Below are positions 4,662-22,043 of a stretch of 35,526 nucleotides of DNA, in pieces (position 1 is the stretch's first letter; every line of letters begins with the position of its first letter). The notes beneath the pieces were generated by a model. The model was not told where the DNA came from. It ran no database searches and saw nothing but the letters and a program-made list of their open reading frames with translations. The position numbers were made by a program, and so were the translations under genes. This DNA is from an uncultured Bacilli bacterium (GTDB taxonomy: Bacteria > Bacillota_I > Bacilli_A > RF39 > UBA660). The stretch lies in assembly GCA_947626515.1 (NCBI GenBank), contig CANQSL010000001.1:1-35526 (forward strand), written 5' to 3'.

Positions 4662-5755
4662 TTTACATCTTCTTTTATTAGTGCATATACTATACTTGCT
4701 ATTGGAAGGCCAATCAACATACCCAAAACTCCAAATAAACTACCACCCACAGTTACTGCAAGTAATGTTAAAAGAGGAGAAAGACCTACTGATTTGCCAA
4801 CAACTTTTGGATAAATAAAATTGCCTTCTATTTGTTGAATAACTAAAAATAATATTATAAATACTACTGCTCGTGTAGGGCTAGTAACTGCAATCAAAAT
4901 AGCTCCAATAACCATAGCAATTAATGCTCCAAATATTGGTATTAATGCTGTAATCGCTGTTAAAACACTTATTATTAATGCATAAGGGAATCTAAATACT
5001 GTTAATACTACAAAGAAAATTCCACCAAGTATCGCAGCTTCAACACATTGTCCAGAAATAAATTTAGAAAATGTTTTATTTGTAAGATCTGCAATTTCTA
5101 ATATTTTTTTTGATTGTTTTCTGTTTAAATACGCATTCATTACTTTTTTTATATTATTAGATAAATATTCTTTTTGACTCAACATATATACTGCAAAAAC
5201 TAATCCAGTAAATAAAGTTATTACACTTGATATAACAGTACCAATAAAATCAACAGCCCCATTAACTATGTAATTTAAAACCTTTACTATAATTGTATCT
5301 ATATTTGCATTTTGTTGGAATACATCTTTAAACCTACTTTGAATTTCTGGAACATTTTTCAATAAGTTAAGAATACTTTCTTCAATATTCTTTATAAAAG
5401 AAGGAATATTTGATATTAATAATTGAATATTTTCAATTAACTCTGGAATAAGTAAGAATGATATAAATAATATAATTGCAAACAATATAACTAATGAAAT
5501 TATAATAGCTATAATTCTTACAGAAATTTTACTAGCTTTGTTTTTCTTATATTTTTTTAAAAAATTTTCTATTTTTGTCATAGGAATATTCAATATAAAA
5601 GCAAGAACAACACCTAAGATAAATGGGAATAATACATCAATTATCTTTAATAAAAAATTAATAACTATTTTTAAATTATTTATACCACAATAGACTAAAA
5701 TGCCAACTGTAATAATTATTATCAATCTTTTTAGTTCATCATTATTTTTCATCAT
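4643..5755 (-). CDS. AI-2E family transporter / permease (PF01594-like)
   Basis: 370 aa, multiple TM; 'PFILGVVLAFILNIPM', 'FISGQCVEAAILGG', 'ALIPIFGALIAMVIGAI', 'IEGNFIYPKVVGKSVGLSPLLTLLAVTVGGSLFG'. Confidence 0.9.
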   Translation of the reverse strand: MMKNNDELKRLIIIITVGILVYCGINNLKIVINFLLKIIDVLFPFILGVVLAFILNIPMTKIENFLKKYKKNKASKISVRIIAIIISLVILFAIILFISFLLIPELIENIQLLISNIPSFIKNIEESILNLLKNVPEIQSRFKDVFQQNANIDTIIVKVLNYIVNGAVDFIGTVISSVITLFTGLVFAVYMLSQKEYLSNNIKKVMNAYLNRKQSKKILEIADLTNKTFSKFISGQCVEAAILGGIFFVVLTVFRFPYALIISVLTAITALIPIFGALIAMVIGAILIAVTSPTRAVVFIILFLVIQQIEGNFIYPKVVGKSVGLSPLLTLLAVTVGGSLFGVLGMLIGLPIASIVYALIKEDVKKRVKY

Positions 5756-6692
5756 CTGTTGTCCTTTCTATAAAGTATTTTGGTCTATTCTTTACCTCGT
5801 TATAAATTTTTCCAATGTATTCTCCTAAAATTCCTAAAAACAACATTTGTATACCACCAATTAACCATATTGAAATTGTAATAAATGTCCATCCAGGAAC
5901 AGTATGACCAGTAAATTTAACAATTAATGTATATACCATAATCATAAAACTAAAAATTGATACTATGAAACCGATTAAAGTTATTATACTTAATGGTTTT
6001 ACGGAAAAACTAGTTACACCATTCATTGCCAAATTAAACATTTTTTTTAAGGAATATTTTGACTTACCTGCAATTCTTTTATTTCTTTCATAGTACACAA
6101 TACTTGAATTTAAACCAATTTCACGAACAACACCTCTTATAAATAAATTCGATTCTTTATATTCTAGTAAATAAGTTAAAGCTTTATTACTAAGCAATCT
6201 ATAATCCGCGTGATTATAGATTGTATTAGCTCCCAAGACATTCATTATCTTATAAAAGAATTGTGCTGTAAATCTTTTTAAAAATCCATCATTTTCCCTA
6301 GAATCTCTGACTCCATATACTATTTCATAGCCTTTATAGTAATCATCCACCATTTTATCTATAGCATCTATATCATCTTGTAAATCTGCATCTATACTTA
6401 TACACATATCACACTTATCGCATACATATTCAAGTCCTGCCAGTAAAGCATTTTGATGTCCTTTGTTTTTAGAAAGCTTTATACCTTTATAAATACTATC
6501 TTTATTAGATAAATCCTTTATTATACTCCAAGTTTTATCTAAAGAACCATCATCGATAAATAATACTTTACTATCCTTGCTTATTTTTTTAGATTTTATT
6601 AATTGATTTATTTTATTCTTAAACTCTTTAGAAGAATCCTTTAAAGCTTCCTCTTCATTATAGCAAGGCACAATAATATACAAAGTCTCCAT
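5742..6692 (-). CDS. GT2 polyprenyl-phosphate glycosyltransferase (GtrB/CsbB-like) with two C-terminal TM helices
   Basis: 'IIVPCYNEEEAL', 'FIDDGSLDKTW', 'SIDADLQDD', 'GVVREIG', 'RIAGKSKYSLKKM'; ATG 6692 preferred over the ORF-track start at 6719. Confidence 0.88.
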   Translation of the reverse strand: METLYIIVPCYNEEEALKDSSKEFKNKINQLIKSKKISKDSKVLFIDDGSLDKTWSIIKDLSNKDSIYKGIKLSKNKGHQNALLAGLEYVCDKCDMCISIDADLQDDIDAIDKMVDDYYKGYEIVYGVRDSRENDGFLKRFTAQFFYKIMNVLGANTIYNHADYRLLSNKALTYLLEYKESNLFIRGVVREIGLNSSIVYYERNKRIAGKSKYSLKKMFNLAMNGVTSFSVKPLSIITLIGFIVSIFSFMIMVYTLIVKFTGHTVPGWTFITISIWLIGGIQMLFLGILGEYIGKIYNEVKNRPKYFIERTTDDEK

Positions 6693-6702
6693 AATGTCAT
6701 CT

Positions 6703-7716
6703 CTACTTTCTAAATACAAATAGTTTACTAATTATATAATTCCCAATTGTTACTATAACTTGAGAAATAATTTTACCTATTTTATCATTCAAATGTAACA
6801 CTGTAACAATAATAAACATAGTTAACATATCTAGCAATAAAGTAATTACTCTAGACCCTACAAAACTTGTTGCTTCTTTTATTTTATTTGGATTTTTACT
6901 TTTAAAGACAAAAACTCTATTAGTAAAATACGCAAAAGCGACCGCCAATATCCAAGATATTATATTAGCGCACTGTAATTCTATTGCAATATTTGGGTTT
7001 AAAAAAGTTAATACACAAAAATAATAGACAGCTAAAGCCACAACTGTTGTCAAAAATCCAACTATTAAATAATTCCATAACTCTTCATTTTTGTGATATA
7101 TTCCCCATCCCCAATTCCAAAATCTTTTAAATATATTTGGTTTATATAATGTATAATCGATTAATTTATTTTTTTTAACTATATATGATTTTTTAGCTAT
7201 ATCTAGTAAAGGTTTATCTGATATTTCATCATCACTATACATTTCTTCAATAATATAGTTTTTATATTGTTTGTTAATAAGTCTTAATTTTTCAACATCA
7301 TGACAATTTTTACCTTTTATTATTCCAGTTTTTTTATTAATATTAGTTGCAAACAAATCTAATATTTTATATTTTTCTTTAATAGGTTTTAACAAAAATT
7401 CTGGACTCGCTGATGCAATAATATCATTTTTATGACTTTTTTTATTAATAAAAAATTGTTTTATTTTATTTTCTTTTTTTGTCCAAAATTCATTAACTAA
7501 TTCATCAATATTATCAAAATATTTTACAATACTAAAAAAGTATTCCTTCATTTCCTCTTTTTCAATTAATTTAGTTTTATATTTAAAATAATAAAATGCC
7601 ATTTTTGGTAATCTAAAAAATAATTTTTTCTTTTTGCTCATTAAAAATTTAATAAAATCTATTGAAGAATCTCCATCGTATATAGTTTTATCAAAATCAT
7701 ATACATATACTTTCAT
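6703..7716 (-). CDS. Fusion of HAD-IB-type phosphatase and GtrA-like membrane protein
   Basis: N-term 'YDFDKTIYDGDSS', 'ASASPEFL', 'MYSDDEISDKPLL' (HAD motifs); C-term 'YLIVGFLTTVVALAVYYF...AYFTNRVFVFKSK...ISKLFVFRK' (GtrA/GtcA); RBS GAGGAAG before ATG 7716. Confidence 0.88.
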   Translation of the reverse strand: MKVYVYDFDKTIYDGDSSIDFIKFLMSKKKKLFFRLPKMAFYYFKYKTKLIEKEEMKEYFFSIVKYFDNIDELVNEFWTKKENKIKQFFINKKSHKNDIIASASPEFLLKPIKEKYKILDLFATNINKKTGIIKGKNCHDVEKLRLINKQYKNYIIEEMYSDDEISDKPLLDIAKKSYIVKKNKLIDYTLYKPNIFKRFWNWGWGIYHKNEELWNYLIVGFLTTVVALAVYYFCVLTFLNPNIAIELQCANIISWILAVAFAYFTNRVFVFKSKNPNKIKEATSFVGSRVITLLLDMLTMFIIVTVLHLNDKIGKIISQVIVTIGNYIISKLFVFRK

Positions 7717-7776
7717 ATTACACTTCCTCATCAATAGTATAACATAATATAATACCTAAAAATACTAAAAAAACTA

Positions 7777-9120
7777 TCAATTACTGATAATTTTTTTATT
7801 TTTTTTAAAATTATTTTTTTCTAAAGTACTTATCAATCTTTCAATTCCCAAACTAGATAATATAATTATTGATACTTGAGGATTAAAATAGTATCTAGCT
7901 GCTACTTCAATTAATAAATATATTCCAAAATAAATAAATATATTGATTAAAAAGAAATAATATACATTATTTATCTTTTTATTTTTAAATAAACCTATAA
8001 ATATAAATATTATTATGACTAAATTAATTATTTTGGCATAATTTAATATTAAATCAATTATACTTTTTGAAAATTGTTTATTATTTTTAACATTAAACGT
8101 ATTGTCCAAATCATCATATAGCCATTGAATTTTTATCTTTTGATAAAATAAATTAGGAAGTTTTTTAAAATCTGTAATTCTTCTAATTATTTCTTCATTT
8201 TCTTTTTTTGTATCGGTCAAATAAATTTCATCCTCTATGTTGTTTTTACCATCATATTTATAATTAAATCCTATTAAAAACTTCCATTGTGGATTTGAAT
8301 TTCTAAAACCTATCTCATTAATATTAAATTTTATCATGGCTAAAGAAGCACCATTTGTAACTATTAGATACATAATTAATATTAACATCACATTTTTTAA
8401 TATTTCTTTAAACTTTTTATTTGTAAAAATTATATATACTATTATTGTTAAAATATAAACTATTCCCTCTGGTCTTTCTAAATTACTTACTCCCATTAAA
8501 AAACCTACAAGTAATAAATTAACAATATTTCTTTTTTTGAACAAAAATATATATATGGCTATTAACATCAACATCATTGCTAGTTGTTGATTACCTAAAA
8601 TTCCATTTAAATATAATGGATATAAAGATATAGCATATAATAAACTTACTATTCTCGCACTTTTTTCACTAGAAATCTTTTTTACTATATTATAAATAAC
8701 AACTGTTATTACAGTACTATATATACAATTTAATATCTTTAAAAATATAATGTTGTTTATAAATTTTAACATCAAAGCTTGATAAAATACATGAAATAAT
8801 TGATAACCCCATTGTGTAAAATAAAACTTATTAACAAAACTTAAATCTTTAAATAATACTTTTTCAGATGCATCATACATAATATAATAATCTGCCAATA
8901 TTTGATTATTTAGTAATAATATTGCAACTATTTTGGTTACTAAACAAAATATTATTAAAAATAAAGAAAAACGTTTTATATTTACTTTCTTTACAAATAA
9001 ATAAATAACCACAATAGACAAAATAGATAATAATATTCCATTTTCTAAAGTAGATATTGATATAAACAATCCTATTAAAATAAGCATTACATAAATAAAT
9101 ATTTTTTTTATCTTTTCCAT
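7777..9120 (-). CDS. Polytopic GT-C-fold glycosyltransferase-like membrane protein (PMT/ArnT/GT39-like)
   Basis: 447 aa, many TM segments, 'MGVSNLERPEG', early acidic loop; sits next to GtrA/GtrB. Confidence 0.7.
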   Translation of the reverse strand: MEKIKKIFIYVMLILIGLFISISTLENGILLSILSIVVIYLFVKKVNIKRFSLFLIIFCLVTKIVAILLLNNQILADYYIMYDASEKVLFKDLSFVNKFYFTQWGYQLFHVFYQALMLKFINNIIFLKILNCIYSTVITVVIYNIVKKISSEKSARIVSLLYAISLYPLYLNGILGNQQLAMMLMLIAIYIFLFKKRNIVNLLLVGFLMGVSNLERPEGIVYILTIIVYIIFTNKKFKEILKNVMLILIMYLIVTNGASLAMIKFNINEIGFRNSNPQWKFLIGFNYKYDGKNNIEDEIYLTDTKKENEEIIRRITDFKKLPNLFYQKIKIQWLYDDLDNTFNVKNNKQFSKSIIDLILNYAKIINLVIIIFIFIGLFKNKKINNVYYFFLINIFIYFGIYLLIEVAARYYFNPQVSIIILSSLGIERLISTLEKNNFKKNKKIISN

Positions 9121-9181
9121 AAGTCTCCCTCATATAAATTAATTTAGCACTGTTAATCTAATATTATATTTTTATCCATTA

Positions 9182-9268
9182 TTAAAAGCTGCATATTCTA
9201 TTAATCTGATTCAAAACATTATCATCTACTGAAGTCTTCCATATATTAAAATCATTACCATTTAGACT
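9182..9268 (-). pseudogene. Possible C-terminal remnant of a decayed gene (SLNGNDFNIWKTSVDDNVLNQINRICSF*)
   Basis: Short coding-like open stretch without a start, in the 265-nt gap of a packed locus; weak resemblance to a sulfotransferase tail. Confidence 0.25.
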
Positions 9269-9385
9269 TCAACTCTAAAATGCATACAAACTTTGCATTT
9301 CTCTATTTTCTAATTGAAATATATCACATATCAAGTTTTGATTCAATTAAAATAATTTTTTTTTCTCCACATACAATTTTTATAA

Positions 9386-9410
9386 AAAAACATTATGCTC
9401 TAATGTTTTT
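9386..9410 (-). terminator. Terminator AAAAACATTA-GAGCA-TAATGTTTTT (minus strand) at the end of the triple-fusion gene
   Basis: 10-bp perfect stem, 5-nt loop, T-run; the gene's TAG stop overlaps the stem/loop. Confidence 0.8.
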
Positions 9411-12400
9411 CTTTAAATACTTTAAATAAAAATCTAATATTATATTTAATAAATCTAACTATTCTTTTTGGCTCTCTTAAAATTCTATATAGCCATTCTA
9501 AATTAAGTAAAATAAATATTTTAGGAGCTCTTTTTATTTTCCCACTTAAAACATCAAATGCTCCTCCAACTCCTACAAATATTCCTTTATCAAATAGCGA
9601 AAGATTTTCGTATATTAATTTTTCCTGCAACGGTATGCCCATGCCAACTAATACAACATCAGGTTTTGTAGTACTAATATACTCCATAACAGCTCGTTTG
9701 TCTTTAATATAACCATTAGTTGCACCTACAAGTTTTATTTTTGGATACTTTTTATTAATAATATTTTCAAATTTTTCTATTATTTCTTCCTTTGCACCGA
9801 ACAAATATACTTTATATTTTTTTTCATTAGCTAATTCCAACAAATATTCAGCTAAATCTACACCGGTTATACGCTTTTTCACTTTATAACCTAAATAATT
9901 AGCACATTTAACTACTGAAGCTCCATCTGGAATTATTAGATTTTTATGATCATATAATAAATTATTCATCTCAATATCGCTTCTTGCTAGCATATAAGTT
10001 TCTGGGTTAGATGTGACTATAAAAGTTTTTTCTTTATTTTTTAATTTATTTTTTACTATATCATAGAATTCTTTTTTAGTACCTAAATATAAATTATTAA
10101 ATAACCCATTTTCGTGAATGTTTGAAAAAAATTCTATATTATAACTTTCAACAGTTTCAAATGAATATTTTTTTGCTATATCTAATGACCTTTTTTGATA
10201 TTCTTTTCTCATATTTTCATCATCTATTAAAGAATTTATTGATTTTATCATTTCTTCTTTATTTCTATCTTTAATAAGTATTCCCTTATCATCAGATAAT
10301 ATTTCACATGCACCTAAAGCACTAGAAAAAGCTACTATTGGAAGTCCATGGCTAGCTGCTTCTAACAATACTAAACCAAAAGATTCTTCTAAAGAAGTCA
10401 TGACATATATTGACGAGTCACAATAAATTTCATTTAATTCTAAAGAATTCTTAAATCCTAATATTTTAACTTTATCATTTAAATCTAATTCTTTTATTAA
10501 AGATTTTAAATTACTTTTTTCTTTACCATCACCAACAATGTTTAATTCCCAATTAGGATGTTTATAAGATACCTCTTTAAAAAGATATATTAAATCGTCA
10601 AAACCTTTTTCTTTACTCAGTCTTCCAACAGATATAATTGATTTTTTATCTAGATTAGAAATACTTCCATCAGTTTCTACAAACATTTGATTAGTAACAA
10701 TTTTATAAGCATACTTTGTATATTTTTCTTTATAATAGTTAGTTAAATAATTACTGCTTGGCATTAAATAATCCACGCCATTTAATATTTTTTTTAATTT
10801 TTTAAAATAAGTTTTTTTATTATTATGGTAAATATGTTCTTGAGCAATTTTAATGTTTTTATAATTATTATAATTAATTAATTTTAATGAAAAATCAGCT
10901 CTAGTAGATATTATTATTTCACTATTACAGTCAATCATAGACTTTATAAGCATATTATTTTTATAATACAATACTTTAACAGAATATAATCCTTCCTTAA
11001 AAATATTAAATATATTTTTACTCTTCAAAGCTTTTAAAAACTTTGGTTTATTGGGATATATTTTTTTATCATTTAGATAAGTTATTTTTACATTATCTTT
11101 TATATTATAAGGCAATTTATCAAGTAAATTGTATACTGAAATAATTTCAACATTATAATTTTTAGATAACATATTAGCCTTATTTATAACATCTCTTTCA
11201 ATACCACCATAATTTAAATGAAGAGCATATATGCTAACTTTATTTTTCTCTATGTTTTGTTTTTTAGTATTTATCAATCCTAATTCATAAAATGCTAGAA
11301 TAAAATATAAAGAAATATATATACTTACAGCCGGAGCTATAAAAGCATGACCACTTATACATGATATACAAAATATCATTCCTAGCATCAAACTATAATA
11401 AATGATACTACTATTTAATTTTTTTAATTTTATCAATTTAAATAAATAATATAAATAAGGAAGAAATACAATTATAAATGCTATTAATCCAGAATGAAAA
11501 TAAATATCAAGTGGGTCTACTTCTATTAATTTTTCAATTCTTTTGTTATTTATAGCTGAAGTATTTACATATCCTAATCCTAAAAATAAAGTTTTTGCAC
11601 TCATATTTTTTTGTTGTATTAAATACGTGATACCATAATATTTGTTTCTGCCACTTAAAATTTTTCCTCCATACTTATTTATAAATTCTCCTAAAAAAAC
11701 TTTTTTATTTAATTCTTCTTCTAAAGCTGCAATCTCTTTTTCAATTTTTGTTTTCTTTTTTTGCTTTTTAGTAGTTGTTTGTGTTGTTTTCTTTGTTGTT
11801 TTTTCACTAACTTTTTCTGAAACTTCTTTATCTTGAATTCCTAAGGCCATTTTAAAATTATCTAAAGAATTAGATGTTGAAAAAATTAAAATAGACGCTA
11901 TAAACAAAATAGATGAAAATATAATAATTTTTTTATGATTATTTTTATTAGTTTTATAAAATAAGCTAATTAAAAATATAATAAAACAATCTATAATAAT
12001 TCCTACCATGCTAGCTTTAGTACCAATAGTAGAAATTATTAAAATTATTACTATTGGAAGAATTACCCAATAACTCTTTTTGGTTTTCAAAATACTATAT
12101 ATGTACGGGAATAATAAAACCAATATTATTGAAATCTCATTACCAGCAAAAAACCACCCTACCTTGCCAGGAATATCTCCGTCAACATATGTATCAAATC
12201 CAGTATTAGTTATCAAAGGTACAAATAATAATACGCAATACGTAATAAGCGTTATTTTTAAAATATTATCTAGTTCACCTTTTGATAGTTTATTATCATC
12301 AAAATAACAAAATAAACATGATAAAAGCATAGGAAAATATAATATTTTAGCTAAATACATTGTTTCAGTAACAAAACTATTTATTGTTAAGTATTTTATT

Positions 12401-12639
12401 TTACTTACATAATATAAAATTATATATATAAATATTAAAAATATATATCCTATACAAAGCTTCTTATATTTAGATGTACTTCTAAAGAATAAATAGAACA
12501 ACATTATTGCTAAAAATAATACTTTAATAACAATACCTAAACTTAATGGGGGATTATACAATCTAGTTGTTAATGAAGTTATTAAATCTATTATGGGAAG
12601 CAATAATAAAAATACATACATCTTTTTTTTATTAAACAT
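9400..12639 (-). CDS. Triple fusion: O-antigen ligase/polymerase-like membrane domain, GT4 glycosyltransferase, WecG/TagA/CpsF (GT26) domain
   Basis: Polytopic N-term with 'LSGRNKYYGITYLI' and 'DPLDIYFHSGLIAFIIVFLPYLYYL'; GT4 'LNYGGIERDVINKANML', 'SVGRLSKEKGFDDLI', 'SLEESFGLVLLEAASHGLPIVAF'; GT26 'VTSNPETYMLARSD', 'IPDGASVVKCANYLG', 'RITGVDLAEYLLELA', 'VLVGMGIPLQEKLI', 'VGVGGAFDVLSGKIKRAPKIF', 'NLEWLYRILREPKRIVRF'. Confidence 0.9.
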   Translation of the reverse strand: MFNKKKMYVFLLLLPIIDLITSLTTRLYNPPLSLGIVIKVLFLAIMLFYLFFRSTSKYKKLCIGYIFLIFIYIILYYVSKIKYLTINSFVTETMYLAKILYFPMLLSCLFCYFDDNKLSKGELDNILKITLITYCVLLFVPLITNTGFDTYVDGDIPGKVGWFFAGNEISIILVLLFPYIYSILKTKKSYWVILPIVIILIISTIGTKASMVGIIIDCFIIFLISLFYKTNKNNHKKIIIFSSILFIASILIFSTSNSLDNFKMALGIQDKEVSEKVSEKTTKKTTQTTTKKQKKKTKIEKEIAALEEELNKKVFLGEFINKYGGKILSGRNKYYGITYLIQQKNMSAKTLFLGLGYVNTSAINNKRIEKLIEVDPLDIYFHSGLIAFIIVFLPYLYYLFKLIKLKKLNSSIIYYSLMLGMIFCISCISGHAFIAPAVSIYISLYFILAFYELGLINTKKQNIEKNKVSIYALHLNYGGIERDVINKANMLSKNYNVEIISVYNLLDKLPYNIKDNVKITYLNDKKIYPNKPKFLKALKSKNIFNIFKEGLYSVKVLYYKNNMLIKSMIDCNSEIIISTRADFSLKLINYNNYKNIKIAQEHIYHNNKKTYFKKLKKILNGVDYLMPSSNYLTNYYKEKYTKYAYKIVTNQMFVETDGSISNLDKKSIISVGRLSKEKGFDDLIYLFKEVSYKHPNWELNIVGDGKEKSNLKSLIKELDLNDKVKILGFKNSLELNEIYCDSSIYVMTSLEESFGLVLLEAASHGLPIVAFSSALGACEILSDDKGILIKDRNKEEMIKSINSLIDDENMRKEYQKRSLDIAKKYSFETVESYNIEFFSNIHENGLFNNLYLGTKKEFYDIVKNKLKNKEKTFIVTSNPETYMLARSDIEMNNLLYDHKNLIIPDGASVVKCANYLGYKVKKRITGVDLAEYLLELANEKKYKVYLFGAKEEIIEKFENIINKKYPKIKLVGATNGYIKDKRAVMEYISTTKPDVVLVGMGIPLQEKLIYENLSLFDKGIFVGVGGAFDVLSGKIKRAPKIFILLNLEWLYRILREPKRIVRFIKYNIRFLFKVFKEKH

Positions 12640-12695
12640 AAACTTCACCTCGCATTTAATAAAATTATATCAAGACAATCAAAAAAGTGAAACAA

Positions 12696-15050
12696 TTATT
12701 TTTTTATAAAATAAAGTATTAATTTAAATATTATTATAAAAACTGAAAAAATAGATTTTATAAAAAATTTAATAAAATATATGAAATAGAATAATACATT
12801 TTTTACGTATTTTGCAAGTCCAAAAAGTAAATTATAAATAAATTTTTTAAAATTTCTTAAACAGTCTAAAATATTTTTTACTTCTGGCAAAATACCATAT
12901 TTCGAAATACTTTTTTTTATACTTTCTTTATTTTCATCCTTATATATAAATTCATTTTCGCCAGTAATTAAATCATATTTAAATTGTTTTTTATAGTATT
13001 CTCTAGTTAACCAAGAATGTAAATTATATTCTTGAATTAACACTAATTCACATATTTTTTCATATGAATCCTTAATTTTTTCATTTCCATCTTTTAATAA
13101 TAAATCAACTTCGCTTTCAAAATTACTAACTAAAGAATTAATGTTAAATTTATTTAAAATTATTTTTCTACAATTTTTCGATAATAAAGAATAATTACTT
13201 AAAACTTCATTTATTGAATTTTCATACAATTTTATTTCTTCTTTTTCATTTGAATAAGATTCTTTTATTATTTTTCCTACATTATCGTTAATTAATTCTG
13301 CTTGGCCTCCAACATTAGCTGAAACAACCGGCTTTCCCATTGATAATGCTTCAAAAGAAGTTAATGCCAATCCTTCTAATGAAGAACATATAATAACAAT
13401 ATCACTTACAGCATAAACTTCTTTTGAATTTGCCCATCCTAAGAGAATAACATTTTTATTTAAATTGTTAACTCTTATATATCTTTTTAATTCTTTGTAT
13501 AAAGGGCCATCCCCAGCTAATAAAAATAACAATTTTTTATTACTCTTTAACATTTTTTTTGCTAACTTAATAAAAAACAATGGACGTTTTTCATCGCTTA
13601 AACGACCTACAAAAGAAATTACTTTATAATCAGATGTAATACCGTACTTATTTTTTAAGAAAGAAATATCACAATCATTAATATTATATTTTTCAGGATC
13701 AGTTCCTATATATAATGTTTTTACATTTGATTTTTTAAAATAAGTTTCTAATTGACTTTTTGTAAAATTATTGCATGTATACGTTTTATCAATATAATTA
13801 TCAAAAAGTTCTGTATATCTTGCAAATCCACCTTTTCCATCATTTAACTCAATTGCATGAACATAATCTATTATCTTAATACTCGGAAATTTATTTTTAA
13901 TCGCAGGAAAAAAACTATATCCTTCGGCACTATTACTATCAAAAACAATTTTAATATTTCTTGACTCTACTAAATATAATACAAACTTCAAATAATCTTT
14001 TCTTTCTAAAAAAGATGCTAATTCATATATTTTATCACAATACTTAGTAAATTCATTCCTGATTTCATTTTCAGAAACTCTCGTTGTTATAATTATAGTT
14101 TCATATTTATTTTTATTTAACAATTTTATAAGATTTAAATTAAAAATATCTGCACCGCCAAGCTGCATCCAAGGTATAATAAATAATATTGGAATTTTTT
14201 TCGTATTCTTATAATAAGGAACTAGAAAATCTATATTTGTATCAACTAAAGGAGCAACATCCCCGATTTCAGGAAATTGAATCACTTTTAAATCATCATT
14301 TACTTTTGGCGTTAAAGAATTAATATAATTCATTGCCTTATCATTATTATTTTGTGCTCTGGAAAATTCTCCTTTTGAGGTTTTTCTATACCAAAATAGT
14401 GGAGTGCTTATTTTCATAGGGATTTTATTTGCAGCCATTAATTTTAACCACAATCCCCAATCTTCATACATATTCTTTTCTTTTATACCAAAACCGCCAA
14501 CTTCTAAAAATGCCGATTTTCTTACCATAGATGATATATATATAATATTATTTTCTTTTTCAAGTCTTGCATTTAAAAATGATTCACCTACATACTCTTC
14601 ATCTCCAAAATTTATAATTGCAGGGCAAACAAAATCTGCTTCTTTATTACATTCCAAACTCCAATATAATATTTCTAATGTTGTTGGTTCTATTAAATCA
14701 TCACTATCTAAAAAAAACAAATATTTTACACTAGATGAACTTTTATTAACTGCAAAATCTCTTGCAACCGAAGGACCTCCATTTGTTTTTTTATATACTT
14801 TTATCCTACTATCAATTTTATTTACCGTATCCAAAATTTTTAAACTATCTTTATCCGTACTACCATCATCAACAATAATCCATTCATAATACGGGAAAGT
14901 TTGAGATAATACACTATTTTTTGTTAACAAAAATTCTTCTTTTGAATTATAAAAAGGAGTTATAATCGCAATTAATGGTTCTTTTTTATTTATTGGTTCT
15001 TCCTGCTTTATTAATTTACTAGGTATATCTTTGAAATCTACTATTCTCAT
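12696..15050 (-). CDS. Bifunctional GT2-GT4 glycosyltransferase with C-terminal aromatic/basic tail
   Basis: GT2: 'IAIITPFYNSKEEFLLTKNSVLSQTF', 'VDDGSTD', 'FLDSDD', 'MYEDWGLWLKL'; GT4: 'SFVGRLSDEKRPLFFIKLA', 'CSSLEGLALTSFEALSMGKPVV'; GAGGAGG RBS. Confidence 0.92.
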   Translation of the reverse strand: MRIVDFKDIPSKLIKQEEPINKKEPLIAIITPFYNSKEEFLLTKNSVLSQTFPYYEWIIVDDGSTDKDSLKILDTVNKIDSRIKVYKKTNGGPSVARDFAVNKSSSSVKYLFFLDSDDLIEPTTLEILYWSLECNKEADFVCPAIINFGDEEYVGESFLNARLEKENNIIYISSMVRKSAFLEVGGFGIKEKNMYEDWGLWLKLMAANKIPMKISTPLFWYRKTSKGEFSRAQNNNDKAMNYINSLTPKVNDDLKVIQFPEIGDVAPLVDTNIDFLVPYYKNTKKIPILFIIPWMQLGGADIFNLNLIKLLNKNKYETIIITTRVSENEIRNEFTKYCDKIYELASFLERKDYLKFVLYLVESRNIKIVFDSNSAEGYSFFPAIKNKFPSIKIIDYVHAIELNDGKGGFARYTELFDNYIDKTYTCNNFTKSQLETYFKKSNVKTLYIGTDPEKYNINDCDISFLKNKYGITSDYKVISFVGRLSDEKRPLFFIKLAKKMLKSNKKLLFLLAGDGPLYKELKRYIRVNNLNKNVILLGWANSKEVYAVSDIVIICSSLEGLALTSFEALSMGKPVVSANVGGQAELINDNVGKIIKESYSNEKEEIKLYENSINEVLSNYSLLSKNCRKIILNKFNINSLVSNFESEVDLLLKDGNEKIKDSYEKICELVLIQEYNLHSWLTREYYKKQFKYDLITGENEFIYKDENKESIKKSISKYGILPEVKNILDCLRNFKKFIYNLLFGLAKYVKNVLFYFIYFIKFFIKSIFSVFIIIFKLILYFIKK

Positions 15051-15059
15051 TTTGCCTCC

Positions 15060-16241
15060 TCATTTCAAGAATTTGCTAATAATTTTTTTAAAATTACTCG
15101 TTTTTTTAGTATTATAGTTATTATATATTATTTCTATTTCCTCATATAAATTTTTGTAATTAATGTTTATAATATCATTAATTAAATATAAGTTATTTCT
15201 AATATCTAAATTTTTTTGTATAAATTTATAATTGAAATTTAAGAATTTTTTATAATCTTTAATATTTTTTAAATAGTCCATTGTCTCTTGATATGATGTA
15301 TCAGGTAAATTATTTCCAGAAAAATTCTCTGAACTTGCTATTTTTATATTATTTTTTGTCACTAAACCTTTAAATCCATTATATCCAGAAATAATTGCAA
15401 ATCTTTTCATTCCTATTGCTTCTAATATACATCTATCTACTCCTATAACTATATCAGATTTTTCAATATAACTAACAACATCGTCTGTAAAACCAAGCAT
15501 TTCATAATCCTTAATTTTATACTCATCTAATAATTCAATTATTTTATTATAACAAGGTCCGTCACCTAAAAATAATAATTTTACATTATTACTTGTTTTT
15601 TTATAAGTAGCAAAAAATTCAATTGCATTTTTTATGCCAAGCATTTTTTCTTCAGCAAATCTACCCATAATCAAAAATTTTTTTATATCCTTTACTATAT
15701 TTTTGCACATAAATGTATGAAGATCTAAAGAATTGTTTAATACAATATACTTATTGCTATTAATTTTAAATAATTCAGAGTGTTTTCTTTTTGTTTCTTC
15801 TGTAATAGTTACAATTTTATATGCATTGGAAAAATATATATTAAATAAATCTTTATATACAGGAAATGTATTAATAAACCAATTAAACACATCGAAAATA
15901 ATTGAATGTACGTATGCAACATATGGAATCCCTAACTTTATACAGGCAGGTAAAGTTGATAAAATACAGGGATATTGATTTATGTGTACTTCTGTTACAT
16001 TGTATTTTTTTATAATTTTTTCTATTATATTACTAGATTTAAAATCAATATTATATAATAATGGAAATTCATGATTTATTACTTTCGCACCTAATTTTTT
16101 TAATCGCTTATAATATGTTCCTTTTTTAGCTAAAATTATAACATTATGCCCTTGTTCAATAAAAATTTTGGTTTGATTGTAAACGTAAGTCTCTACTCCT
16201 CCTATGTTTAGTTGTTCTAAAACAATCAATATAGATTTCAT
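15060..16241 (-). CDS. GT4 family glycosyltransferase
   Basis: 'LNIGGVETYVYNQTKIF', 'LIMGRFAEEKMLGIKNAIEFF', 'VIGVDRCILEAIGMKRFAI'. Confidence 0.88.
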   Translation of the reverse strand: MKSILIVLEQLNIGGVETYVYNQTKIFIEQGHNVIILAKKGTYYKRLKKLGAKVINHEFPLLYNIDFKSSNIIEKIIKKYNVTEVHINQYPCILSTLPACIKLGIPYVAYVHSIIFDVFNWFINTFPVYKDLFNIYFSNAYKIVTITEETKRKHSELFKINSNKYIVLNNSLDLHTFMCKNIVKDIKKFLIMGRFAEEKMLGIKNAIEFFATYKKTSNNVKLLFLGDGPCYNKIIELLDEYKIKDYEMLGFTDDVVSYIEKSDIVIGVDRCILEAIGMKRFAIISGYNGFKGLVTKNNIKIASSENFSGNNLPDTSYQETMDYLKNIKDYKKFLNFNYKFIQKNLDIRNNLYLINDIININYKNLYEEIEIIYNNYNTKKTSNFKKIISKFLK

Positions 16242-16254
16242 ATATAACTCCTGT

Positions 16255-16986
16255 CTAACTCATTTGTCTTTTAAAATATTTGTCACAAACTTTATTAGCA
16301 TTTCCAATTTCTACAATTTTTCCATGATCTAACCAAATGACTTTAGAACAAATTTCCTTAATTGACTCTAAAGAATGTGAAACGTATAAAACTGTAGTTC
16401 CTCCCTTAATTAATTCCATCATTTTATTTTTACTTTTTTCTTGAAATTTAATATCGCCAACTGATAAAATTTCATCTACTATTAAAATTTCAGGATTAAC
16501 TATTGTTGCTATTGAAAAAGCTAATTTAGCAATCATACCAGACGAAAAATTTTTAACGGGCACGTCTAAAAAATCTACTAATTCGGAAAATTCTACTATT
16601 TCATCAAATTTTTCTTCTAAAAACTTTTTAGAATATCCCATTACTGCACCATTTAAATAAATATTTTCTCTTGCTGTTAATTCTAAATCAAACCCAGCTC
16701 CTAATTCTATCATAGGAGATACAACTCCATTAACTTGAATACTTCCACTTGTGGGCTTCATAACACCACTGACTATTTTAAGAAGCGTTGACTTCCCAGC
16801 ACCATTTGCGCCTATTAAACCAATTACTTCTCCTTTTTTTATATGAAAAGTAACATTATCCAAAGCCATAAAATATTCTTTTTTCTTCCTTTTTTTAAAA
16901 GATAATAAATTTATAAATGCTTCTTTAAAAGAATAATCTTCTATACCTAAGTCATATTTCATAGATACATTATTAACTGTAATCAT
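16255..16986 (-). CDS. Polysaccharide/teichoic-acid ABC exporter ATP-binding protein (TagH/Wzt-like, no C-terminal carbohydrate-binding domain)
   Basis: Walker A 'GLIGANGAGKSTLLK', signature 'VKNFSSGMIAKLAF', Walker B 'PEILIVDEILSVGD'. Confidence 0.93.
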   Translation of the reverse strand: MITVNNVSMKYDLGIEDYSFKEAFINLLSFKKRKKKEYFMALDNVTFHIKKGEVIGLIGANGAGKSTLLKIVSGVMKPTSGSIQVNGVVSPMIELGAGFDLELTARENIYLNGAVMGYSKKFLEEKFDEIVEFSELVDFLDVPVKNFSSGMIAKLAFSIATIVNPEILIVDEILSVGDIKFQEKSKNKMMELIKGGTTVLYVSHSLESIKEICSKVIWLDHGKIVEIGNANKVCDKYFKRQMS

Positions 16987-16995
16987 AAATACCTC

Positions 16996-17796
16996 CTATG
17001 CATAATATATAAATTTATCTTGTTTCATTTTAAAGATAATACATCCAAATAAAAATACTACTATAGCACTTCCAAAACACCATAACCAACAACTTAAAGT
17101 AGGTATATGATTATAAAGAATTATTTGTCTAGTAAAATCTATATAATGATATAACGGATTGAAATAAAATAATTTCTGTAAATTTGGAGCAATCATACTA
17201 ATATCATAAAATATTGGTGTATAATATTGCCATATAGTTAAAACGATACCAAAAATATAAAATATATCTCTTAAAAATACAGATATTGTGGATAAAATAA
17301 AACCTAATCCAACAGTAAATAAAAATAAACATAAATATGCAAAAGGTAAAAATAAATAATATATATTTAAAATACAATGAGTTTCTTGATTACCAGTAAA
17401 TAATATTATTAATAAAAGAGGAATCAAAGTTAATAAAAAATTAATTCCTACAAACAAACATTTAGATAAAGGGAATATATATTTAGGGATATATACTTTT
17501 TTCATTAAAGGGAAATTGACTACCAAACTTGTCATAGCGCTATTGCTAGCTTCACTAAAATAATTAAACATTACAAGTCCGGTCATTAAGTAAACTAAGT
17601 AATTTACACCTGGCATTCTAAATTTAAACATATAAGAAAATACTAAAGCCATAACAGACATTTGTAATAAAGGATATAATAAACTCCATAATACACCTAG
17701 AACACTTCTTTTATATTTAACTTTAAAATCTCTCGATACCATTTGACTCATTAAAAATGAATATCTTTTAAAATTAGCTAGTATCCTTCCTAACAT
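16996..17796 (-). CDS. Polysaccharide/teichoic-acid ABC exporter permease (TagG/Wzm-like, ABC-2)
   Basis: 'VSRDFKVKYKRSVLGVLWSLLYPLLQMSVMALVFSYMF', 'VFLRDIFYIFGIVLTIWQYYTPIFYD', 'NPLYHYIDFTRQIIL'. Confidence 0.93.
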   Translation of the reverse strand: MLGRILANFKRYSFLMSQMVSRDFKVKYKRSVLGVLWSLLYPLLQMSVMALVFSYMFKFRMPGVNYLVYLMTGLVMFNYFSEASNSAMTSLVVNFPLMKKVYIPKYIFPLSKCLFVGINFLLTLIPLLLIILFTGNQETHCILNIYYLFLPFAYLCLFLFTVGLGFILSTISVFLRDIFYIFGIVLTIWQYYTPIFYDISMIAPNLQKLFYFNPLYHYIDFTRQIILYNHIPTLSCWLWCFGSAIVVFLFGCIIFKMKQDKFIYYA

Positions 17797-17874
17797 ATAA
17801 TCACTCCCAAATACATACTAATTATACCCTATAGTTATTAAAAAATCTATTCCTTAATCTTATTATGCGTAAAT

Positions 17875-17908
17875 AAAAAAAAAGATAAACTAATAAAATT
17901 AATTTATC
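17875..17908 (-). terminator. Rho-independent terminator splitting the glycosyltransferase operon
   Basis: Minus strand GATAAATTAAT-TTT-ATTAGTTTATC (one U-G wobble) followed by T9. Confidence 0.7.
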
Positions 17909-17923
17909 AATATTACTCTATAA

Positions 17924-18859
17924 TCATTTAAACATACTATAAATACTACAATATATTTTAGAAATATTCTTATGACTTTCTATAAATCCTCTTATACCTC
18001 TACTTTTTATATATTTGCTATTTTTATAATCTATTTCATTTTCTTCTAAATATTTAAATACACTATCTATAAAATTATTTCTTATATTTTTATCTTTTTG
18101 ATATCTTTGTTGTATAGAATAATTAAAAAGTATAGATATAATTAATTCATTTAAGCATTCATTTTTATCATGTTTATAAATTTCTTTAACTAAATTTAAT
18201 TCCTCAAAAATATCAAAAACTTTACTATCTCTAGTTGTAGTTTCACTTAATTCATGAACTCTAAAATAATTTAAAGGTTTACTTACCTTCCCAATTCTTT
18301 TGCTAAAGTATAATAGACTTGCTACAAATGAAACATCTTCATATTTTAATGTTTCACTAAATTTAATATCATTGTTTACTATAATACTTTTTTTTACTAT
18401 TTTATTGCATGGCCCTAAAGGTATATTTACTAATAATTCAGGACTTTTTGACAAATTAGTTATTTGAAAATCTTTTAAAATAACTGGTGTTATTTTCCCA
18501 TTTTCAACATAATTATAATCGCATACTACTAAATCTAATTTATCGTTATGCAATTTATCATACATAAGTTGCAAAAAATTTTTATCTACATAATCATCTG
18601 AATCAATAAAACAAATGTATTCTCCTTTAGATTTTTTTATTCCTAAATTTCTAGAATACCCAATTCCCATATTATGTTTATTTTTTATATACGTAATTTT
18701 AGAAGAATTATAATTTTTTATTAATTCATCTATATTTCCTAAACTACAATCATTAATAATAATTATTTCGTAATTATTATATGTTTGTTCTAATAAACTT
18801 TTTATGCATTCTTCAATATACTTCTCTGTATTATAAACAGGTATAATTATACTAATCAT
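17924..18859 (-). CDS. GT2 family glycosyltransferase
   Basis: 'MISIIIPVYNTEKYIEECIKSLLEQTYNNYEIIIINDCS', 'CFIDSDDYVD'. Confidence 0.92.
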   Translation of the reverse strand: MISIIIPVYNTEKYIEECIKSLLEQTYNNYEIIIINDCSLGNIDELIKNYNSSKITYIKNKHNMGIGYSRNLGIKKSKGEYICFIDSDDYVDKNFLQLMYDKLHNDKLDLVVCDYNYVENGKITPVILKDFQITNLSKSPELLVNIPLGPCNKIVKKSIIVNNDIKFSETLKYEDVSFVASLLYFSKRIGKVSKPLNYFRVHELSETTTRDSKVFDIFEELNLVKEIYKHDKNECLNELIISILFNYSIQQRYQKDKNIRNNFIDSVFKYLEENEIDYKNSKYIKSRGIRGFIESHKNISKIYCSIYSMFK

Positions 18860-19767
18860 ATTCCTACCTCAAATTTAAATAAATAATATATTTTTTTTAA
18901 CTTTCTTTTAAACGTACTAGTATCTAAATAGTTTAATATTCCTAAGTATTTTACTTTTTCTTTATACTTTTTCTTTATCTCTTTATTTAATGAAAAGTAT
19001 TTACACATTAAGCTTGAAGAATAAAAGTGCATAAATTCTTTATATTTTTTTTCTTGAAAATAATCTTTTGAATTCTTATATATTTCTAAACAATCTTCAA
19101 ATTTTTTTATTTCTTTACTTCTATCACTCATAATACTATTATTTCTTATAACATAATTATATCCAATAAAATTAATTGATTTTATTTTTTTAGCCTTAGA
19201 TATTATTTTAGGTATTAAATCAAAATCTTCATGATAAATATTTTTCTTAAATTCGAAATTATTATTTCTATAAAAAGTCTTATTTATTAAATATAGTGGT
19301 GCTACATCTATATATTTATATTGTTCAAGCATATTAAATGCCATTATACCATCTGTTATATCAAAGGCATGTTCATAATAATCATAATTAGTATCTTTAT
19401 CTATTACCCTTAATTGATATCTAACAATATCTGGTTCATCTACTATATTTTTATATAATTCTTCTAGCAAATTTAATTCTATGTAATCATCACTATCAAT
19501 AAATAACAAATAATTTCCACTTGATTTATCAACTCCAGTATTTCTAGCTACACTTAATCCTTGATTTTTTTCTTTAACAATTTTGATTCTTTCATTTTGT
19601 TTATATTGTTCAAGTATTTTTTCACTTCCATCTGTAGAGCCATCATTTACTATAATAACTTCATAATCATCAAATGTTTGGTTTACTATACTCTCTAAAC
19701 ATTTTTTTAAATATTTTTCTGTATTATATACTGGAACTATAATTGAAAATAATGGTTTTTTATTCAT
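18856..19767 (-). CDS. GT2 family glycosyltransferase
   Basis: 'FSIIVPVYNTEKYLKKCLESIVNQTFDDYEVIIVNDGSTDGS', 'LFIDSDDYIE'; 4-nt ATGA overlap with the next gene. Confidence 0.93.
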   Translation of the reverse strand: MNKKPLFSIIVPVYNTEKYLKKCLESIVNQTFDDYEVIIVNDGSTDGSEKILEQYKQNERIKIVKEKNQGLSVARNTGVDKSSGNYLLFIDSDDYIELNLLEELYKNIVDEPDIVRYQLRVIDKDTNYDYYEHAFDITDGIMAFNMLEQYKYIDVAPLYLINKTFYRNNNFEFKKNIYHEDFDLIPKIISKAKKIKSINFIGYNYVIRNNSIMSDRSKEIKKFEDCLEIYKNSKDYFQEKKYKEFMHFYSSSLMCKYFSLNKEIKKKYKEKVKYLGILNYLDTSTFKRKLKKIYYLFKFEVGI

Positions 19768-20839
19768 TTATAACACCTACTAATATTTTTTTTCTTTTTT
19801 CATTTATTTTTTTTATATCAATATCTAAAATGTTTTGTTTATTTGAATCTATTATTTCTTTCATTTCTTCGACTAATTTATTTATATTATTGCTAACAAG
19901 TATTCCAAAATTATCTCCAATATTAATAGTATCATCACTAATTTTAAGTGTAGATATAACCGTCTTTTTTAATACTAATGCTTCATTAAAAATAACTGGA
20001 AAACCTTCATAATTGCTAGTTAATAATATATAATCACAATTTTTTATATAAGGATATGGATTCTCTTTATATCCTAATAACTTAACATATTTATTTAATT
20101 TATTTTTATCTATATAACTTAGATATCTTTCTTCATCTTTACCTACACCAATAATATATAATCTAATGTTATCATATTTATCTTTCAATCTTTTAATTAA
20201 CTCTAATTGTAAAAAAATATTTTTAGATTCCTCTTCTAGTCTTCCAACAAATAATAGATTTATATTATTTTTTTCAAATTTTATATTTAGCTTTTCTTTA
20301 GAACAAGTTATTATTTCATCACAATTTATTAAATTATTAATAACATATGATTTTTTTTCAATATTAGGATAATATTTTAATAAATTTTGTTTCATCTCAT
20401 TCGAAACAAAAATAATTTTTTTAAAACTATTTATATATCTTGTATCAAAAAAGTGTTTTAAATCAATTTCATCATAAATTTTAGTATAATCACTATGTAT
20501 AAATAAAATATTATTTTTACTAGATATTCTTGCTAATTTATTTGCTGAATAAGAATATGTTGCATAACATATTGAAGCATAATAATTATTATATTTAAAC
20601 TTCCATATTAATTTTCTAGTAAAATTAATAATTTTTCTTATAAATGGTATTTTAAAGTCACTAACTTTGAGTTCAATTATATTTATATCTTTTGGAACTT
20701 TATTGATTAATTCGCCCGTTTTTTTCTCTAAAACCAAATCAATTTTAAATTCGTCACTTAAATAATTTAAAACATTTATTAATGATTTTTCTATTCCTCC
20801 AATTTCTAAAGTATTAGCAGAAATAAGAACTTTTTTCAT
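19760..20839 (-). CDS. GT4 family glycosyltransferase
   Basis: 'NTLEIGGIEKSLINVLNYL', 'LLFVGRLEEESKNIFLQLELI', 'LLTSNYEGFPVIFNEALVLKKTVIST'; ATG 20839 preferred over GTG 20851. Confidence 0.9.
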   Translation of the reverse strand: MKKVLISANTLEIGGIEKSLINVLNYLSDEFKIDLVLEKKTGELINKVPKDINIIELKVSDFKIPFIRKIINFTRKLIWKFKYNNYYASICYATYSYSANKLARISSKNNILFIHSDYTKIYDEIDLKHFFDTRYINSFKKIIFVSNEMKQNLLKYYPNIEKKSYVINNLINCDEIITCSKEKLNIKFEKNNINLLFVGRLEEESKNIFLQLELIKRLKDKYDNIRLYIIGVGKDEERYLSYIDKNKLNKYVKLLGYKENPYPYIKNCDYILLTSNYEGFPVIFNEALVLKKTVISTLKISDDTINIGDNFGILVSNNINKLVEEMKEIIDSNKQNILDIDIKKINEKRKKILVGVINE

Positions 20840-20893
20840 ACGTTTCACCACTATTTATTATAATATAATTAGAATATAAAAAAAAGAAACAAC

Positions 20894-21958
20894 TCAATTT
20901 TTCTTTAATTTGCGCTTCTTTTCTTTACTATGTTGATATAATATATCCGTTTTAAATATAAATATCAATACAACTACCATTAATAGAATATATAGCCCTA
21001 CAGCAAGATTGGTTTTACCAATAGCGTAAAGAACTGATACAAAACTAAATAATGCATTTACTATATAAATAATTATTACAGATTTTTTTACTGATGATGT
21101 ACGTGCCAATAATTGAAAATGAATATGTTCTTTATCTGGTTTTCCAATTGATTGTCCTTTTATCAGTCTTCTTAAAATTGCTAAAAAAGTATCCAACAAC
21201 GGTATAAATAATATCAAAAGAGGTATTATGAAAGATGTCAAAGAGGCAGTTTTAAAACCTAAAAGAGATATAACAGCAAACATAAAACCTAAAAACATAC
21301 TTCCAGTATCTCCCATAAATATAGAAGCGGGATTAAAATTATATAGTAAAAAACCTAAAGTTGAGCCCAACATAATTAAACATAGTACAAAACCTAAATC
21401 ATTAAATCTTCCTAATAAAACCGAAATTATGGCAATAGTAATAAAATATATAGAACAAGTTCCAGCTGCCAAACCATCTAACCCATCTATTAGATTAATC
21501 GCATTTATACAAGCAACTATCATAAAAATAGTTAAAGGATATGCCCATAAATCTAAATTGATATCAATTCCAAAAAAAGATAAATCAGTCATATAAATTT
21601 TACCATAAAAAACTAAAATAAATGCTACAACTAACTGTCCCCATAATTTAGTGGTAGCTTTTAACGGATTTATATCGTCGATTATTCCTAACAAAATTAT
21701 TAAAAAACTACCAATTAATATAGAAATCATCTGAGTAGTAAGTGGAGCAAAAAACATATAGCCTATTAAAAATGATAAAAATATTGCAAGTCCTCCAAGT
21801 CGTGGCATAGGATATTTATGTACTTTTCGATTATTAGGTATATCCATTGCATTAATATGAATTGCAATATCTCTAATTAAAGGTACCAATATAATGCTTG
21901 ATACAAACGTTATCAATACTATGAAGTAAATATTAACACCGTTAACAGATATATTCAT
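20894..21958 (-). CDS. tagO: Undecaprenyl-phosphate sugar-1-phosphate transferase (TagO/WecA-like)
   Basis: 'DIPNNRKVHKYPMPRLGGLAIF', 'GIIDDINPLKATTKLWGQL', 'NAINLIDGLDGLAAG', 'FMGDTGSMFLGFM', 'DKEHIHFQLL'. Confidence 0.93.
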   Translation of the reverse strand: MNISVNGVNIYFIVLITFVSSIILVPLIRDIAIHINAMDIPNNRKVHKYPMPRLGGLAIFLSFLIGYMFFAPLTTQMISILIGSFLIILLGIIDDINPLKATTKLWGQLVVAFILVFYGKIYMTDLSFFGIDINLDLWAYPLTIFMIVACINAINLIDGLDGLAAGTCSIYFITIAIISVLLGRFNDLGFVLCLIMLGSTLGFLLYNFNPASIFMGDTGSMFLGFMFAVISLLGFKTASLTSFIIPLLILFIPLLDTFLAILRRLIKGQSIGKPDKEHIHFQLLARTSSVKKSVIIIYIVNALFSFVSVLYAIGKTNLAVGLYILLMVVVLIFIFKTDILYQHSKEKKRKLKKN

Positions 21959-22043
21959 ACTTATCACCTACAAACTTATTATATCTTTAATTATTAATAA
22001 TTACTACTAAAAATAGTATATTATTTACATTATTTTCTCTAAC

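Follow-up and report, generated by a model that had tools for sequence, protein, structure and literature searches.

A conserved fusion of O-antigen-ligase-like, GT4 and WecG/TagA domains in uncultured Bacilli, a possible two-sided enzyme of surface-glycan assembly

Introduction

O-antigen-ligase-like enzymes and glycosyltransferases (GTs) of families 4 (GT4) and 26 (GT26) are usually separate proteins, two at the inner side of the membrane and one at the outer side. Little is understood of how a polymerase or ligase at the outer face picks out its proper lipid-linked glycan, and the order of such pathways has mostly been guessed from gene neighbourhoods. Here, we describe a protein in which the three are joined, encoded on a 35,526-nucleotide stretch of DNA (hereafter the window) from an uncultured Bacilli bacterium (GTDB lineage Bacillota_I; Bacilli_A; RF39; UBA660; GenBank assembly GCA_947626515.1, contig CANQSL010000001.1, positions 1 to 35,526). 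The protein probably adds early sugars to the product of TagO on the inside of the membrane and transfers the exported glycan on the outside.

The closest described system is WadA of Brucella, a bifunctional GT25–O-antigen ligase whose single polypeptide catalyses reactions at both faces of the membrane (PMC9938171, PMC10920833). In both proteins one chain joins a cytoplasmic GT to an outer, WaaL-like domain of 12 helices, and both occur with a Wzm/Wzt exporter. However, WadA has a single GT (GT25), which is N-terminal, and keeps the ligase His, whereas the window protein has two GTs, both C-terminal, a Glu in place of the His, and no N-terminal GT25. New relative to WadA are the third domain, the GT26–GT4 pair, the reversed domain order, the Glu, the TagO-based setting and genus-wide conservation; also new is how widely one bacterial family uses this outer domain as a hub for fusions. 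An earlier interpretation of the window made from its letters alone (the sequence-only reading) had suggested a vectorial synthase that links the two membrane faces; the idea of one chain acting on both faces is not new, having been published for WadA. The same reading did not recognise the architecture as a described one. This stands for the three-domain form, which apparently has not been described before (our literature search found no description, with subscription papers and database-only annotations outside its coverage), but not for ligase-like plus GT proteins of two domains, which are common in the family.

A three-domain protein conserved within one genus

The features of the fusion are as follows.

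9400..12639, minus strand: triple-fusion open reading frame (ORF), start codon ATG at 12639, stop codon at 9402-9400
12645..12651, minus strand: putative ribosome-binding site GAGGTGA, five bases before the ATG, read from the sequence
11284..12639, minus strand: domain 1 (residues 1-452), PF13425 O-antigen-ligase-like/Wzy-like membrane domain with 12 helices and both termini predicted cytoplasmic (Pfam, AlphaFold2, fold match, positive-inside count)
10123..11250, minus strand: domain 2 (residues 464-839), GT4 glycosyltransferase (Pfam, EX7E motif, fold matches)
9403..10104, minus strand: domain 3 (residues 846-1079), WecG/TagA/CpsF GT26 with C-terminal appendage (Pfam, alignment to TagA 7mpk)

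The uninterrupted ORF encodes 1079 amino acids (aa) with no internal stop. A mechanical call extends it to 9400-12648 on the minus strand, a 1082-aa reading from GTG; this start at 12648 was dropped in favour of the ATG at 12639 because the GTG falls within the GAGGTGA ribosome-binding site and three congeneric proteins begin at the ATG-equivalent place. Along the ORF, Pfam finds PF13425 (O-antigen-ligase-like, residues 7-447, E 3.7e-49), then PF00534 (GT4, residues 664-820, E 1.5e-40, 139 bits) and then PF03808 (WecG/TagA, residues 903-1066, E 1.8e-54, 184.5 bits vs a cut-off of 27.4), all far above gathering cut-offs and with ranges given in the numbering of the 1082-aa reading. The domain boundaries proposed by the sequence-only reading are right to within tens of bases by this measure. 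Structure prediction, which it had named as a check, yields a whole chain that folds (AlphaFold, mean predicted local distance difference test (pLDDT) score 87), and a predicted template modelling (pTM) score of 0.66, at which the relative placement of the domains in the full-length model should not be trusted. Each of the three domains has a confident predicted fold and keeps its catalytic signatures.

The source is a metagenome-assembled genome of 1.37 Mb (95.6% complete, 61 contigs), and a scan of its contigs with the protein returned a single locus. Within the genus, four of five genomes encode the full three-domain protein, and the copies are 56-60% identical across roughly 1050-1070 aligned positions; the three further copies are full length (1055-1079 aa), with the three Pfam domains in each copy tested, and the fifth genome, in which no triple fusion was seen, is 78% complete. 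A search of 385 genomes sampled across the order, in which matches at E 1e-95 or better were followed to their ORFs, gave no additional triple fusion. The four fused copies group together as a single clade in a tree of GT26 domains (support 98/98). The claim of three domains in one uninterrupted ORF is thus borne out by Pfam, by fold and by the full-length congeneric copies. Assembly from a metagenome in 61 contigs would leave room for an error of sequencing or assembly, or for a relic without function, and the sequence-only reading had itself raised an artefact at the junctions. Since the same full-length architecture recurs in three other genomes of the genus, a chance or chimeric junction is excluded, and those copies together with overlapping split genes in other genera (below) rule out an assembly or frameshift artefact. 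Given also the retained catalytic residues and the single, well-supported clade, we assign an artefact or relic practically no probability. An apparent frame of 1542 aa in genome G145 is really two ORFs split by a TGA.

Predicted topology and catalytic residues of the membrane domain

Four features of the membrane domain bear on its function.

11518..11877, minus strand: long external loop (residues 255-374, 120 residues) between helices 9 and 10, carrying Arg331 and Glu373 (AlphaFold2, conservation)
12016..12018, minus strand: Lys208 of a GTK motif, Lys/Arg in 64/64 domains, aligned with WaaL Arg191
11647..11649, minus strand: Arg331, candidate second phosphate-binding residue, Arg in 63/63 aligned domains
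11521..11523, minus strand: Glu373 of an E-x-D motif, Glu in 63/63, at the place of WaaL His313

The AlphaFold2 model of this domain (pLDDT 84.5, pTM 0.86) has 12 membrane helices. Compared with the Protein Data Bank (PDB) by Foldseek, its sole credible match is WaaL (7tpg; probability 1.00, E 2.2e-3, TM 0.44/0.49), which was also the only, sub-threshold, match in a sequence search of the PDB (E 0.95). The short loops on the side of the N-terminus hold 12 Lys/Arg and one Asp/Glu, and those on the opposite side three of each; because of this Lys/Arg excess both termini are predicted to lie inside, which would make GT4 and GT26 cytoplasmic and the long loop external, as in WaaL. The 12-helix topology so predicted supports the inner GTs and outward-facing ligase or polymerase envisaged from the letters.

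Residue conservation was counted among 64 distinct domains, one row being gapped and the count hence 63 at some positions. Besides the residues listed above, Asp375 is Asp in 61 domains and Glu in two. Arg331 is paired with WaaL Arg265 by order along the loop, not by alignment. The 12-helix fold with a long loop and two basic residues that bind undecaprenyl diphosphate (Und-PP) in O-antigen ligases (WaaL, GT121) are both present, and fold (7tpg), basic residues and long external loop are common to WaaL and the polymerases of the GT-C1 clan (Wzy, GT125-129). In contrast to WaaL, no catalytic His was found: the position of His313 is a Glu in 63/63 aligned domains, in a column weakly aligned to WaaL. 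GT-C1 enzymes have been described as having His at this place in ligases and Asp or Glu in most inverting polymerase families (PMC10920833, also our source for the WaaL residues), and the Glu is a feature that the membrane domain shares with the polymerases of the clan. Under that rule the domain would be polymerase-like rather than a GT121 ligase, and because Glu replaces the O-antigen-ligase His, a Wzy-like polymerase appears at least as likely as a ligase. Of the WaaL/Wzy-like label given to it earlier, fold and basic residues hold up, and membership of WaaL fails on the His.

The GT4 and GT26 domains and the sugar donor

The GT4 domain carries an EX7E motif (Glu752...Glu760), and its best fold matches are WlaC (6eji) and BshA, with TarM further down. 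WlaC works in an Und-PP oligosaccharide pathway. The GT26 domain was aligned to Thermoanaerobacter italicus TagA (7mpk, residues 19-236 of 244, E 7e-34), and one residue is singled out here.

9925..9927, minus strand: Asp905, aligned with the TagA catalytic base Asp65 (TagA alignment, position check)

The residues named in the TagA study, which also found the appendage to be needed for activity (PMC6493773), are all kept: Thr37 (T876), Asn39 (N878), Asp65 (D905), Arg83 (R923), Gln167 (Q1005) and Glu168 (E1006), and likewise the appendage arginines Arg214 (R1052), Arg221 (R1059) and Arg224 (R1062). The catalytic residues Thr37, Asp65 and Gln167 and the appendage arginines are kept in the three congeneric proteins too. 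Superfamily model TIGR00696 scores 168.3 bits vs a cut-off of 69, and NCBIfam agrees on the GT26 superfamily; the NCBIfam TarA equivalog NF041710 was not reached (183.1 bits vs a cut-off of 350). Homology to TagA/TarA and WecG is therefore almost full length, appendage and named residues included, and a TagO/WecA-like gene that would make the acceptor lies in the cluster, but the window domain differs from these enzymes in being fused to two others and in its doubtful donor.

TagA uses UDP-N-acetylmannosamine (UDP-ManNAc), the product of UDP-N-acetylglucosamine (UDP-GlcNAc) 2-epimerase (PF02350). None of the five genus genomes has PF02350 above cut-off, although control genomes matched as expected and PF02350 is often found in the GT26 cluster of relatives (e.g. 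G022, G044, G048, G052, G088, G120, G123, G128, G142, G143). For this reason ManNAc as the donor, which the sequence-only reading had carried over from TagA, seems doubtful, judging by gene content; the GT26 enzymes of the genus probably use another donor, or UDP-ManNAc arises by an unrecognised route. Family GT26 also includes HfsJ, which acts on another lipid-linked acceptor, UndPP-Glc (PMC11340318). Loss of the epimerase does not cleanly mark the triple fusion and was dropped as a marker, as G045 and G097 have GT26 and lack PF02350.

Origin of the fusion and other partners of the outer domain

The ligase-like and GT4 domains already form one protein in many members of the family (G007, G022, G044, G052, G060, G085, G123, G140 and others). 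Such two-domain proteins (compared in G007, G022, G052, G123 and G155) have the first two domains of the window protein in the same order at about 28-41% identity; unlike in the window protein, GT26 is missing or is a separate gene, often nearby. As a separate gene it adjoins the ligase-like–GT4 gene in G331 and G250 and overlaps it in G155 (11 bp) and G275 (1 bp), and the window protein aligns over both ORFs of these split pairs (G155, G275, G250, G331) with no loss at either junction. The triple fusion thus fixes a pre-existing pair of genes, which in several genomes adjoin and sometimes overlap. A GT4–GT26 fusion indicated by tblastn in G120 (623 aa) was dropped, since stops separate what are two ORFs.

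The ligase-like domain is joined directly to GT26 in G119 (717 aa) and G047 (1207 aa, with a sulfatase-like domain added). Because their GT26 domains lie far from the fused genus clade in the tree, the two functions were joined at least twice. Of 141 genomes of the family, 80 have PF13425 above cut-off, about thirty of them in frames of 560-1210 aa, and the identified partners of the domain are this GT4, a second GT4 type, GT2, GtrA, an Alg14-like protein, GT26, a sulfatase-like domain and an N-terminal acyltransferase.

Several of these proteins deserve mention in their own right. The G047 protein (L082:1356-4976) is a second triple fusion, independent of that in the window, and carries PF13425, GT26, a short additional domain and a domain of the sulfatase family. 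By genus within one family, PF13425 fusions lie at L083:518-2668 (G119), L086:2016-3776 (G034) and L044:7623-10139 (G048), with further ones in L088 and L119 (both Alg14) and L122 (acyltransferase); partners across these six are of the GT26, GtrA, GT2, Alg14-like and N-terminal acyltransferase kinds. Two other fusions were seen in the same genomes, TagO with a polysaccharide deacetylase domain (G034, L086:3795-5657) and GT26 with a DHHW/AlgX-like SGNH domain (G048, L019:1498-3366).

Gene cluster and genome context

Three neighbouring features of the window frame the fusion.

20894..21967, minus strand: TagO/WecA-like polyprenyl-phosphate GlcNAc-1-P transferase, start of the cluster (Pfam, NCBIfam)
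16255..17796, minus strand: ABC-2 permease and ATPase of teichoic-acid/O-antigen export type (TagGH/Wzm-Wzt-like) (Pfam, NCBIfam)
5742..9120, minus strand: GT2, HAD-GtrA fusion and PMT_2 GT-C protein, directly downstream of the triple fusion (Pfam)

The cluster runs from TagO through a GT4, two GT2, the ABC-2 permease and ATPase, a GT4 and a GT2–GT4 fusion to the triple fusion, followed by the PMT_2 protein, the HAD-GtrA fusion and a GT2. The tie to TagO suggested earlier thus has a TagO homologue in the very cluster of the fusion. The last three genes likely form a module for decoration with polyprenyl-phosphate-linked sugars; the module is kept beside the fusion in G147 (L079), and HAD-GtrA also in G145 (L039). 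TagO is 81% identical at the same locus of G145 and G147. The G145 locus has the window genes after TagO (ABC subunits 80-82% identical) and, next before the fusion, three CDP-glycerol glycerophosphotransferase-type (PF04464) genes, an IspD-type cytidylyltransferase, a second ABC pair and a second ligase-like gene. The G147 locus (G147:C1; L078, L040, L079) shares with window 5745-21967 the ends, TagO on one side and fusion, PMT, HAD-GtrA and GT2 on the other, and its middle has a MOP flippase in place of the ABC exporter and other GTs. Across the window, G145 and G147, therefore, the ends are constant and the middle, exporter included, is variable, which is the layout of surface-polymer loci. 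Elsewhere the source genome has two LCP matches, three MOP proteins and two PF04464 proteins; the PF13425 domain of the triple fusion is the only one found in it.

Among individual genes, window 6703-7734 encodes the fusion of a HAD phosphatase-like domain to GtrA, with counterparts at 65-80% identity near the G145 and G147 triple fusions. The GT2–GT4 fusion (window 12696-15050), directly upstream of the triple fusion, recurs in G145 and also in G035, where it was read in part. Upstream of TagO, window 22377-25235 encodes a 952-aa protein with no Pfam match, which has a distant relative (28%) at the same place in G147. The second ligase-like gene of G145 (L039:12734-14107) is unfused, with just a few bases between its end and the triple fusion that follows it.

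Proposed mechanism and alternatives

From the architecture, conservation, topology, catalytic signatures and gene context we infer a set of reactions, their order and a polymerase role, in which the triple fusion works on both sides of the membrane as a glycosyltransferase in a surface-glycan pathway begun by TagO, a proposal that we place just short of an even call. On the inside, the TagO product (GlcNAc-PP-undecaprenol) would receive its second sugar from the GT26 domain and a later one, probably the third, from the GT4 domain, which would act on the same lipid-linked acceptor; the remaining GTs of the cluster would elongate the glycan, which an exporter (ABC type in the window, MOP flippase in a sister species) would carry outward. 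On the outside, the N-terminal GT-C domain would take the undecaprenyl-PP-linked glycan as donor and pass it to another glycan; of the two roles, that of an inverting Wzy-like polymerase is more likely than that of a ligase. With early sugars and outer transferase fixed as a unit, the outer domain would meet a core made by its own inner domains. In a bolder form, which we hold rather doubtful, one enzyme, its three active sites divided between the two faces of the membrane, would make an invariant wall-polymer core inside and recognise the same core outside in order to polymerise or anchor it, with GT26 no longer using ManNAc.

Coupling of the two faces gains from the pairing seen outside the genus, where ligase-like–GT4 and GT26 genes adjoin or overlap (G155, G275, G250, G331) and ligase-like and GT26 domains are fused (G119, G047). 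The Glu signature and the flippase-type clusters favour a polymerase, and the ABC exporter of the window and the WadA precedent favour a ligase. Several points count against the polymerase proposal: an ABC-type exporter, as in the window, usually moves finished polymer without need of Wzy; the two LCP proteins of the genome could do the wall attachment; the column that sets Glu373 against WaaL His313 comes from a sub-threshold hidden Markov model segment (-3 bits), in a register that agrees with the neighbouring helix; and the donor of GT26 is uncertain. Were the outer domain a ligase instead, the inner domains would build a linkage unit and the WaaL-like domain would move the finished, ABC-exported polymer off undecaprenyl-PP to peptidoglycan or a membrane glycolipid, in the manner of WadA, which likewise pairs a cytoplasmic GT with a ligase and works with Wzm/Wzt (PMC9938171). 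A Wzm/Wzt-type exporter is present in both the window and G145, the source genome has its sole PF13425 domain here, and the fusion is kept with an ABC (window, G145) or a MOP (G147) exporter, as expected of a final ligase. However, Glu replaces the ligase His in all aligned domains, the MOP-flippase relatives have the same domain at the place expected for a polymerase, and the genome has LCP transferases, the usual wall-polymer ligases, so that we regard a ligase as a tentative possibility that we would lean against.

The fusion might also serve only equal amounts or membrane recruitment, the outer domain working on another glycan with no mechanistic coupling. The many different partners in the family (GT4 of two types, GT2, GtrA, Alg14, GT26, sulfatase, acyltransferase) could mean that fusion is a loose habit, and a fused membrane domain would supply the membrane that TagA needs to be active (PMC6493773). 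Nevertheless, almost every identified partner belongs to a type that takes part in building lipid-linked glycans, and in several genera these two neighbours stand unfused in the same order; we consider such uncoupled joining unlikely.

Implications

If the bolder form of the two-sided mechanism is true, the start and the end of a lipid-linked glycan pathway would be physically coupled. Evolution has repeatedly tied particular inner-face GTs to an outer-face enzyme, which offers direct, testable pairings such as GT26 and GT4 with one outer domain. With this fusion, the two-face case described for WadA now takes in a three-domain form, a probable Gram-positive-type wall and a family in which the outer domain has at least seven partner types. 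For this uncultured genus of small genomes, the protein probably helps to build the sugar coat of the cell surface.

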